A stretch of DNA of 47,139 bases from a virus. Where the stretch lies: the IMG/VR virus record IMGVR_UViG_3300028800_000143, positions 1 through 47,139 of that record; one strand, given 5' to 3'. This document shows positions 8,185 to 12,448 of this stretch, piece by piece; the first letter of the stretch is position 1; every line of letters starts with the position of its first letter. The position numbers and the translations under genes are program-made. The notes beneath the pieces are model-generated. The model was not told the DNA's origin. It did no database searches and was given only the letters and a program-made list of their open reading frames with translations.

Positions 8185-8209
8185 TATCACAGAGTAGCGA
8201 AGCTGTCAA
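8181..8209 (-). promoter_or_regulatory. Leftward sigma70 promoter
   Basis: On the minus strand TTGACA (8204-8209) and TACGAT (8181-8186) are separated by exactly 17 bases: a perfect -35 and a good -10. It points into the small terminase gene. A GCTTCGC copy lies in the spacer. The palindrome at 8170-8184 covers the end of the -10 and the likely start site. Confidence 0.8.
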
Positions 8210-8494
8210 GTCTTTTTATTTCTTTTAATATGAATAACTTACAACGAAAAATGACTAACTCTATTAAAACACGAAGTGGCCAAAGTGTTCGGTTACTGAA
8301 CAGATATGAAATTTATATGGCAGGAAAAAATTATTTGCGATTGCTCCATACTCATTCTCATATTTCTCGTTTTTTGCCCCCTCTAGGGTCAGTCCCTTCT
8401 ATATCCCATGGCTTCAGACATCGAAGCATCGCAGTCGAAGTGCGAACACTATATGTAGTAGTGCATGTATCAGAAGAGCCGATCACACTACTAG
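8210..8494. other. AT-rich divergent control region
   Basis: No convincing gene. The region is AT-rich in its first half and contains CACTA/TAGTG half-sites: CACTA-N7-TAGTG at 8447-8463 and the perfect 14-bp palindrome CACTACTAGTAGTG at 8486-8499. These look like operators for one dimeric regulator. I could not find a clear rightward promoter, although one must lie here or just downstream. Confidence 0.45.
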
Positions 8495-8662
8495 TAGTGG
8501 TAGCATAGAGTCAGTACTCACAAAAGTTGACTGCGGCAGGTTGAAAGCGTAGATGCGTTCTATATACCTGCTAGTCTTATTGGAGAGACTATGCTACCAC
8601 TATATGATACAACCCATTCGCCTAGTGAGTATCTTCGATACTTCGTAGAGGCTAACGTATCG
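8495..8662 (+). promoter_or_regulatory. Structured leader A of the rightward block
   Basis: A perfect 14-bp helix (8495-8508 with 8589-8602) encloses an 80-base loop that contains a further stem, GCAGGT (8536-8541) with ACCTGC (8566-8571). TACTCAC (8515-8521), inside the loop, can pair with GTGAGTA (8625-8631) outside it, forming a pseudoknot. GTGAGTA competes with a small hairpin, AGTATC (8628-8633) with GATACT (8637-8642), and CGATAC (8636-8641) can instead pair with GTATCG (8657-8662) next to the Shine-Dalgarno of the zinc-finger gene. Competing helices suggest a regulatory leader, for example an attenuator or a put-like antiterminator. Confidence 0.6.
8611..8625. repeat. 15-bp inverted repeat, left copy
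   Basis: AACCCATTCGCCTAG is the exact reverse complement of 9349-9363. The pair brackets the zinc-finger gene and the 147-residue gene. Confidence 0.85.
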
Positions 8663-8675
8663 CGGAGGTATTACA

Positions 8676-8792
8676 ATGAGTACACGCGATAATGGACGGC
8701 ACAATAAGACTAAGAGTGTATGCCCACAATGTAAAGCAATCGTGCGCTCACTACCGCGTCATATACGCCGCCAACATAAGACAAAGAAGTAA
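8676..8792 (+). CDS. 38-residue C2H2 zinc-finger protein
   Basis: The ORF begins MSTRDNGRHNKTKS and contains CPQCKAIVRSLPRHIRRQH, a Cys-x2-Cys-x9-His-x4-His zinc finger (Cys16, Cys19, His29, His34) in a strongly basic chain. A GGAGG sits eight bases before the ATG. A single basic C2H2 finger probably binds nucleic acid; as the first gene of the early block, behind an elaborate leader, it may be a regulator. I infer no specific target. Confidence 0.75.
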   Translation: MSTRDNGRHNKTKSVCPQCKAIVRSLPRHIRRQHKTKK

Positions 8793-8799
8793 TGTCTTA

Positions 8800-8819
8800 G
8801 CACAGGGTAATACCTGTGC
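8800..8819 (+). terminator. Intergenic hairpin
   Basis: GCACAGG and CCTGTGC form a perfect 7-bp stem with a 6-base loop just after the zinc-finger gene. No U-tract follows, so it may be a processing or stabilising hairpin rather than a terminator. Confidence 0.4.
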
Positions 8820-8858
8820 GATACGTTAGCCATACGATTCTATATACGAGGTGACGCT

Positions 8859-9302
8859 ATGGCGAATCGAATGTTCACTAAGAGGAATGGTCAACAGGTC
8901 GAGTGTAAGGACCTTATTATACCTGCGGACGCGGTGTCAAGTATTATGCGGCTTCAGGAAGAATACGCTTCGCGAGGTCATATCAAGAGCTTGCTATTCG
9001 TAGCTCTAGATATGCTCTCTACGGGCAAAGATTCCATCGAACGTCGATGGGAGAATGCTGCGAAGAATAAGGCCAATCGTAATGCTGGCAAGGCCGTCAA
9101 AGAATATATCCGTGTTCAGTTACAACTACGACGGCCAATCGACCCATTAGTGATAGCCGAACTATCGGGCATGCAAGTACCCGATGGCCACCCGACTATC
9201 GAAATGGAAGATACGCTAGACGGCGATGGGACACTTGACCATATTGACCTAACCGACGAACAGCTTGAAGCGGCGACCGACCCTAACGGTCATGTTGCAT
9301 AG
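8859..9302 (+). CDS. Hypothetical early protein, 147 residues
   Basis: I do not recognise this protein. It has a mixed helical core with WENAAKNKANRNAGK (basic) around residues 64-78 and a very acidic C-terminus containing EMEDTLDGDGTLDHIDLTDE. It has a GAGGTGAC ribosome binding site. It lies inside the 15-bp inverted repeat pair (8611-8625, 9349-9363). An acidic-tailed early protein could mimic DNA or bind a host protein; that is speculation. Confidence 0.65.
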   Translation: MANRMFTKRNGQQVECKDLIIPADAVSSIMRLQEEYASRGHIKSLLFVALDMLSTGKDSIERRWENAAKNKANRNAGKAVKEYIRVQLQLRRPIDPLVIAELSGMQVPDGHPTIEMEDTLDGDGTLDHIDLTDEQLEAATDPNGHVA

Positions 9303-9308
9303 CCTTCA

Positions 9309-9350
9309 AGCGCGCGATATATCTTCGATTTAATATCGGAGATACGCGCT
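9309..9350 (+). terminator. Two-part hairpin after the 147-residue gene
   Basis: AGCGCG (9309-9314) pairs with CGCGCT (9345-9350) and CGATAT (9315-9320) with ATATCG (9333-9338), with a 6-base bulge on one side. It ends directly at the right copy of the 15-bp inverted repeat. It may terminate, process or stabilise the message. Confidence 0.45.
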
Positions 9351-9363
9351 AGGCGAATGGGTT
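9349..9363. repeat. 15-bp inverted repeat, right copy
   Basis: CTAGGCGAATGGGTT is the exact reverse complement of 8611-8625. No target-site duplication is seen outside the pair. Confidence 0.85.
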
Positions 9364-9371
9364 ATTAAAAT

Positions 9372-9510
9372 CTATATCTCTACCACGCGGCTGGATGCAA
9401 CCTAGTCCGATAATCTAGGCGTCCACATAGGAACTACTGGCGAAGGGAAGATAGTTCATACCATTAGTGTATGGCCCCTTGACGCTACCAGCCGCGCGGT
9501 GGAGGTATAG
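9372..9510 (+). promoter_or_regulatory. Structured RNA B sequestering a ribosome binding site
   Basis: Bases 9372-9394 and 9488-9510 form a 23-base helix with 22 pairs (two G-U) and one A-C mismatch. The GGAGG Shine-Dalgarno of the gene starting at 9513 (9501-9505) lies inside the 3' arm, so translation should be blocked while the helix is closed. The interior branches: CCTAG (9401-9405)/CTAGG (9415-9419), CGTC (9420-9423)/GACG (9481-9484), GAACTA (9431-9436)/TAGTTC (9452-9457), and ATAC (9458-9461)/GTAT (9469-9472). AAGGG (9443-9447), in a hairpin loop, can pair with CCCTT (9476-9480), a pseudoknot. The architecture resembles a riboswitch-type or protein-controlled RNA; I know no matching family. 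Confidence 0.75.
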
Positions 9511-9512
9511 CT

Positions 9513-9632
9513 ATGAAAGAATATCTTGAACGTGTAGCCTCATGTGTTCAGCAATATAACGACGGTGCTATTACACTTGAGGAATTGGTGAATTGGATTA
9601 TCGCCAATTACCCTTATGAATCTAATTCGTAA
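9513..9632 (+). CDS. 39-residue early protein under RNA structural control
   Basis: The ORF begins MKEYLERVASCVQQYND and reads as an acidic helical mini-protein with a C-terminal VNWIIANYPYESNS. The ATG follows GGAGG by seven bases, but that signal is buried in the long helix of element B. It overlaps the start of the next gene by 17 bases. No family recognised. Confidence 0.65.
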   Translation: MKEYLERVASCVQQYNDGAITLEELVNWIIANYPYESNS

Positions 9633-9840
9633 GCTTGCTGAGGAACAGGCTCGCCGCGATAGTAAAGCCTTGCCAAAGGCCCATACTAAGCGCGAGCCTA
9701 GTGCCTTGGAATCTAATGCCGAATGGCATCCTCAGGGATATTACCTCCATTTCTGTTACCACGATAAAACTCTCTACGAGCCATGCGGAGCATGCCGTAG
9801 GACTAAAACTGACGCGAAGCGTAATCTATCTCTCTTGTAA
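9616..9840 (+). CDS. Small Cys/His-rich probable zinc protein
   Basis: A 74-residue basic protein. The second half carries HFCYHDKTLYEPCGACRR, with Cys and His spaced to bind one zinc ion. Similar short CxxC proteins are common among phage early genes. Its ATG lies within the last codons of the preceding 39-residue gene, so it is probably coupled to it and indirectly controlled by element B. A competing frame (9635-9856) encodes nothing recognisable. Confidence 0.55.
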   Translation: MNLIRKLAEEQARRDSKALPKAHTKREPSALESNAEWHPQGYYLHFCYHDKTLYEPCGACRRTKTDAKRNLSLL

Positions 9841-10044
9841 TCCATGTGTGTGCTAAAACTCATTTACCTAAGTATAGTAGTAGTAGTAATATAGAGAGAT
9901 ATTTAGTGAGACATCTACATCTATAAACATATAACACTCTTCTTTTCAACGACATAGCAGCGTAATAACTTTAGCACGCGCAAACGAACTATTGTGTCAA
10001 ATCAGACACGTCTAAGTCTATGAATCGAAAGAAGATAAAAAGAC
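9841..10044. other. Intergenic region upstream of an early promoter
   Basis: No gene seen. GTGCTAAA (9850-9857) and TTTAGCAC (9970-9977) are inverted repeats, and a TAG-triplet run lies near 9877-9892. TATTGTGTCAA (9990-10000) is the exact inverse of TTGACACAATA (10045-10055), which includes the -35 box of the promoter that follows. This arrangement suits a looping or dimer-binding regulator. Confidence 0.45.
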
Positions 10045-10074
10045 TTGACACAATATCTTGACGCATGAGATACT
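10045..10074 (+). promoter_or_regulatory. Rightward sigma70 promoter
   Basis: A perfect -35 TTGACA (10045-10050) is followed after 18 bases by GATACT (10069-10074), a moderate -10. It lies about 30 bases before the ribosome binding site of the zinc-ribbon gene at 10103. The -35 box is part of an 11-bp inverted repeat with 9990-10000. Confidence 0.65.
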
Positions 10075-12153: not shown

Positions 12154-12303
12154 ATGAGAATAGTATTATGGGCCTTCCTAACCTCAATTCTATGTGTCCT
12201 TATAAATGGACCATCTTATTGGTGGCTTCCCTTCGGGTACGTAGTAGGTTTATACGTAGTAAATATCATCGCCAAGATGGGCCAAGATTCCGTCCAAGAT
12301 TAA
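12154..12303 (+). CDS. 49-residue membrane protein between two structured RNAs
   Basis: The ORF begins MRIVLWAFLTSILCVLING and has two hydrophobic segments (about 3-18 and 22-40) with a YWWLPFG turn. AAGGAG precedes the ATG. Its stop codon TAA overlaps the first arm of structured RNA D. A tiny two-pass membrane protein flanked on both sides by elaborate RNA folds is unusual; toxin-like or holin-like action is possible but unproven. Confidence 0.65.
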   Translation: MRIVLWAFLTSILCVLINGPSYWWLPFGYVVGLYVVNIIAKMGQDSVQD

Positions 12304-12448
12304 GAATAACAGACTCGGCTAGCCTTTATCCCTGATACGTCCATTTAGAACGCATAGAATGGCTATCGCAAGTAATCCTCCGTTGCAATGGGGTACGATG
12401 TGGATTACTAACCCGTCTGGGTAGAGGCTAGCCTAGTGTTTTATTCTT
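12302..12448 (+). promoter_or_regulatory. Structured RNA D: multi-branch junction
   Basis: Nested closing helices AAGAATAA (12302-12309)/TTATTCTT (12441-12448) and GGCTAGCCT (12317-12325)/AGGCTAGCC (12425-12433) enclose three hairpins: CCATT (12341-12345)/AATGG (12358-12362), AGTAATCC (12371-12378)/GGATTACT (12402-12409), and ACCC (12411-12414)/GGGT (12419-12422). This is a four-way or larger junction. It ends just upstream of GGAG and the ATG of the J-domain gene at 12470, so it forms most of the leader of the J-domain/vWA/FtsK operon. Confidence 0.72.

Follow-up and report, generated by a model that had tools for sequence, protein, structure and literature searches.

Organization of the early leader

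The DNA analysed here, called the window throughout, is a viral record of 47 kb (47,139 nt) from a soil-type phage, in which the terminase and structural genes run leftward and the other genes rightward. Relatives were reached via the terminase, the FtsK-like ATPase, alignment of the 147-amino acid (aa) protein and the DNA pattern of a promoter-like element, and the gene order common to them is small terminase subunit (leftward), conserved element YGCGRACACTATA, small variable genes, 147-aa gene and 74-aa gene. The conserved element TGCGAACACTATATG at 8441-8455 (+ strand, as are all genes and stem arms of the window given below) is likely the promoter of the early rightward transcript and occupies the same place in all relatives. 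The element YGCGRACACTATA occurs once per leader start in all of them (L016 4953, L018 3921, L019 4882, L020 1832, L021 4140, L022 4509 and others); it resembles the SP6 promoter core but may be a promoter of the host type. In addition, a 23-nt inverted repeat with TTGACA-like ends (8204-8226 / 10028-10050, 87% complementary) faces the two transcription directions and probably represents two promoters of opposite direction.

No homologue of the 147-aa gene was found in annotated phages or by a single-sequence scan, a DNA search with 9360-9640 among annotated phages gave no match, and a terminase search of bacterial genomes revealed no relative.

Stems of ~22-30 bp make up the early leader in 17 contigs, counting the window. 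A short stem lies near the 5' end of the leader of the window (8494-8603, arms 8494-8508 and 8589-8603), followed by the long-range stem B (arms 8611-8640 and 9334-9363), which encloses the group-conserved 147-aa gene (8859-9302). Stem C, located between the 147-aa and 74-aa genes, begins only 8 nt past the end of stem B; closed domains joined by short linkers thus cover the leader from ~8494 up to the ATG at 9513.

Stem B and the 147-aa gene

Stem B is present in the window and in 15 other loci (L003, L008, L016-L023, L028, L034-L036 and L039), and a stem around a 119-aa gene takes its place in L014, which brings the total to the 17 contigs. No stem of this type was seen in L041, and L040 is too short to judge. 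Compensatory base changes in homologues, the mark of a conserved stem, were found: among 14 aligned arm pairs from as many phages, 23 of the 27 base pairs were changed on both sides (L017, mis-registered in the alignment, was left out of these counts). The proportion of paired cells was 90.5%, compared with 37-45% when the partner was slid by 1-3 columns, a control that only partly answers for the registration of the arms by hand from stem-finder output. The covariation score reached 0.686 versus 0.256 in shuffled alignments of these related sequences, and 0 of 500 shuffles attained it.

Stem B hides no Shine-Dalgarno sequence (SD). According to the folding model, opening the start of the 147-aa gene costs 4.1 kcal/mol with the stem and 9.7 kcal/mol without its 3' arm. 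The arms (8625-8645 and 9310-9352 in the window, and those of relatives too) can also fold locally into hairpins in competition with the inner half of the long-range pairing, and stem B may thus be bistable. The enclosed protein was modelled with an overall pLDDT of 78 and a confidently predicted N-terminal beta-beta-helix core (about 80-94 for residues 1-100); comparison of the model with the PDB gave no match at E < 0.001, and its likeness to TraM-type DNA-binding proteins was weak.

Type A stems and other local stems

Stem A, with a 5' arm at 8643-8674 and a 3' arm at 8807-8837, encloses a 38-aa zinc-finger-like gene (8676-8792), the SD of which (8664-8668) lies within the 5' arm. Stems of this type around a small variable gene were recognized in the window, L003, L008, L016, L018, L020/L022, L021 and L035. 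The SD of the enclosed gene falls within the 5' arm in six of the eight distinct cases, and the 3' arm starts a few nt from the stop codon of the gene in seven of the eight (14 nt in the window); type A stems thus pair an SD with sequence after the same gene. Modelling predicted that the 38-aa gene has a largely accessible SD on the nascent RNA, which is shut after synthesis of the 3' arm, the difference in opening cost of the start being smaller (11.3 nascent vs 14.2 kcal/mol closed). A G.G mismatch (or a 2x2 mismatch) beside the SD recurs in the type A stems of the window, L003, L008, L018, L020 and L035, at the same distance although the enclosed genes differ.

Local stems of similar size occur elsewhere in the group. 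In another gene interval of the window, 12302-12331 pairs with 12419-12448 around a loop of 87 nt (score 46, z = -3.7). This stem and that of L016 at 8384-8499 measure 27-28 bp and share the same interval before a 155-aa gene, with unlike sequences. Further SD-free local stems of the size of stem C were detected at L008 13919-14027 and L039 4884-5028.

On the transcribed strand, G.U pairs outnumber A.C mismatches by 41 to 12 in the fixed arms of stems A, B and C and two other local stems, a count in which the arms of A and C were delimited by a G.U-tolerant search and the loci are related; a symmetric search gave 67:46, diluted by over-extended ends. The excess points to + strand RNA rather than an inverted repeat acting at the DNA level.

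Stem C: outer helix and interior

The arms of stem C, 9372-9394 and 9488-9510, pair at 22 of 23 positions (20 Watson-Crick and two G.U pairs, with one A.C mismatch), and the duplex is worth -40.5 kcal/mol. The first-pass annotation had described a 23-base helix with one mismatch and GGAGG in its 3' arm ahead of the ATG at 9513, and the pairing count confirms it, the SD GGAGG occupying 9501-9505. Folding of the whole element (9372-9510) gave -60.8 kcal/mol (z = -4.1), which 0 of 200 shuffles equalled. Stem C scored 49, second among the local stems of the window, compared with 33.5-44.5 for the best local stems when the whole window was dinucleotide-shuffled eight times.

The interior fared differently. 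The 93-nt loop (9395-9487), which had been considered too elaborate for a plain terminator, is when folded alone slightly below shuffle stability (z = +0.52; 137 of 200 shuffles as good), its structure being no greater than chance; the stability of the element comes from the outer stem. The AAGGG/CCCTT pairing suggested as a pseudoknot appears in the minimum-energy fold as an ordinary nested helix, and it competes with the hairpin required for a pseudoknot. Rfam, searched at the gathering score and in E-value mode, returned nothing useful and no match for the element. The earlier description is accordingly upheld in its outer helix and SD burial and not confirmed in its special interior.

In the folding model the SD stays paired from 20 to 65 °C. 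Melting in the physiological range, as in an RNA thermometer, was thus not predicted. A small ligand is unlikely to move such a stem.

The buried start and its gene pair

Stem C precedes a 39-aa gene (9513-9632) overlapped by the group-conserved 74-aa gene (9616-9840). Of the 18 starts tested, the region at 9513 has the highest calculated opening cost, 20.5 kcal/mol (2.9-14.2 kcal/mol for the others), and together with the fold this cost predicts an SD sequestered in the helix, in agreement with the burial proposed at first. The modelled cost falls to 10.3 kcal/mol without the 5' arm and to 6.5 kcal/mol when the 5' end is placed at 9496, into the range of the other genes; after loss of the 5' arm, the SD is predicted to remain weakly paired with the start of the gene.

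The 74-aa gene has its own SD in several relatives and none evident in the window. Stem C probably controls both genes, given this absence and the overlap, and translation of the 74-aa gene is probably coupled to that of the 39-aa gene; the joint control put forward in the first-pass annotation is supported to this extent by the sequence. Similarity to the 39-aa gene was seen in a 49-aa gene of L018 (4068-4217; 10 of 21 residues alike), and a degenerate pattern for the 39-aa gene matched only the L018 type, L055 having a nearly identical sequence. The 49-aa gene sits in a type A stem, where the SD pairs downstream of the gene, as opposed to upstream in the window.

No homologue of stem C was found in any other locus among the relatives examined. 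In L016 and in the genome of L034, whose 147-aa proteins are 55-59% identical to that of the window, stem B is followed by the next gene without stem C. In more distant relatives (L008 13233-13388, reverse complement; L039; L003), the stretch separating stem B from the following gene contains long hairpins with AT-rich loops, which occupy the place of stem C with unlike sequences. We read stem C as a window-specific local member of the stem set; its surroundings are better supported than the element itself.

Proposed mechanism and alternatives

The stem, the buried SD, the overlap of the two genes, the series of stems and the compensatory change in stem B are demonstrated by sequence and statistics. 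Upon them we tentatively build a reading to which we give somewhat less than even confidence, in which stem C is a translational lock on the 39-aa/74-aa pair, opened by cleavage of the RNase III type; cleavage, translational silence and coupling are the parts that we infer. As one of several stems of ~22-30 bp, stem C would contribute to a partition of the early rightward transcript into closed domains. After its synthesis it would sequester the SD and block translation of the 39-aa gene, silencing the overlapping 74-aa gene along with it via translational coupling. A host double-strand-specific endonuclease (RNase III type) would most likely cut the stem and open the lock, and the genes beyond the cut would then be set free on a message of their own. 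A search of the window revealed no RNase III gene, so the cleaving enzyme would be that of the host.

Stem C has the features of an RNase III stem, namely a long intergenic double strand with free loop size and no sequence consensus; no strong consensus unites the known bacterial targets, whose loops range from four to thousands of nt, and the early mRNA of T7 is matured at such stems (PMC8708148). The lock is further supported by intergenic stems of the same length class across the group, with loops of 45 to 700 nt and drifting sequence, and by the excess of G.U over A.C on the transcribed strand. On the other side, stem C has no homologue and hence no covariation support, the SD lies inside only some stems of the set, and stem B eases the start of its gene. 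A clean release is also argued against by the model, in which the pairing between SD and gene start persists weakly without the 5' arm.

The main rival is a purely structural brake without cleavage, which would leave the pair with low constant translation or allow a start only in a short kinetic window, in the manner of other long-range SD pairings. We regard it as possible but doubtful. The highly stable stem predicted over the SD would suit such a brake, as would the modelled behaviour of the 38-aa gene in stem A, whose SD is open on nascent RNA and shut once the 3' arm is made, and SD pairing in icaR, itself an RNase III substrate, blocks initiation (PMC3868564). However, stem C has its 5' arm ahead of the SD, leaving hardly any kinetic window, and there is little reason to lock two genes for good, one of them the group-conserved 74-aa gene, unless the lock can be released.

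Stem C could instead act on the message, in processing, as a spacer or in stability, much like the intervening sequences cut out of 23S rRNA; the SD would then lie within it by accident. RNase III does remove stems of 100-200 nt from some 23S rRNAs (PMC8708148), and the local stems at 12302-12448 of the window, L016 8384-8499, L008 13919-14027 and L039 4884-5028 are free of an SD. This reading is nevertheless unlikely: within the lower helix the SD takes a central position, and in six of eight type A cases the SD of the enclosed gene likewise falls inside the stem.

The riboswitch or protein-sensing leader proposed in the first-pass annotation, in which a ligand bound by the interior would open the outer helix, has in its favour the site directly upstream of a gene, the SD in a helix and several possible loop hairpins. 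It now appears improbable, with an interior at chance level, neither a conserved sensor nor a homologue, close relatives that lack the element, no known family in Rfam, and a stem of -40 kcal/mol that would be a poor switch for a small ligand or temperature. As this case illustrates, a ribosome binding site can be buried close to a phage promoter without there being a riboswitch.

Inverted repeats acting as DNA (operators, recombination sites or an origin) are very improbable: short motifs are shared by stem B arms between phages and the 147-aa protein has its faint TraM-type likeness, but G.U exceeds A.C on the transcribed strand, complementarity is maintained despite sequence change, and the arms adjoin SDs and stop codons in a constant gene orientation.

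Returning to the lock, it may be part of a wider arrangement, for and against which we see about equal chances. In the phage group, the early message would begin with a series of RNA domains, every one shut by a stem of ~25 bp that surrounds a gene or spacer and is kept by compensatory change while the sequence drifts; several stems would join the SD and the stop codon of the same gene, and stem C would be a local variant locking a two-gene unit. Different roles within the stem set are possible. A limited literature search turned up no account of stems that enclose genes in the early mRNA of phages, and gene-by-gene closing of a phage polycistronic mRNA would, if true, be a layout not described before. 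Should the stems work as proposed, individual early genes would be timed or insulated at the RNA level, one stem per gene. The stem around the 147-aa gene offers an evolution-backed target for testing in a laboratory host.

Comparison with known systems

Translational riboswitches likewise hold the SD in a helix that lies before the gene. Unlike them, stem C has no conserved or significantly structured sensor and no family match, and it is absent in relatives.

Long-range pairing governs SD access in the fold-back inhibition of hok mRNA, which PMC3868564 names, and in the control of the levivirus maturation gene. Type A stems resemble these systems in SD access through long-range pairing with a kinetic window on nascent RNA, while there is no toxin-antitoxin context here, and stem C is local and closes at once.

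In the icaR mRNA of Staphylococcus aureus, the 3'-UTR pairs with the SD region and the duplex is a substrate of RNase III (PMC3868564). Common to both is an SD paired to a distant part of the same message in a long double strand suited to RNase III, and for type A stems the pairing partner also follows the gene. In stem C, whose cleavage and repression are putative, the partner precedes the gene instead, and here several stems succeed one another in a polycistronic phage leader.

The RNase III sites of T7 early mRNA (such as R1.1) are local hairpins without SD burial of the stem C kind, and the RNA enclosed by the stems of bacterial pre-rRNA is non-coding; cleavage in the present leader is putative. 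With both, the stems described here share an intergenic position, a length of at least about two helical turns, any loop size and no strong consensus (PMC8708148), and the pre-rRNA stems enclose a whole gene product just as stem B encloses its gene.
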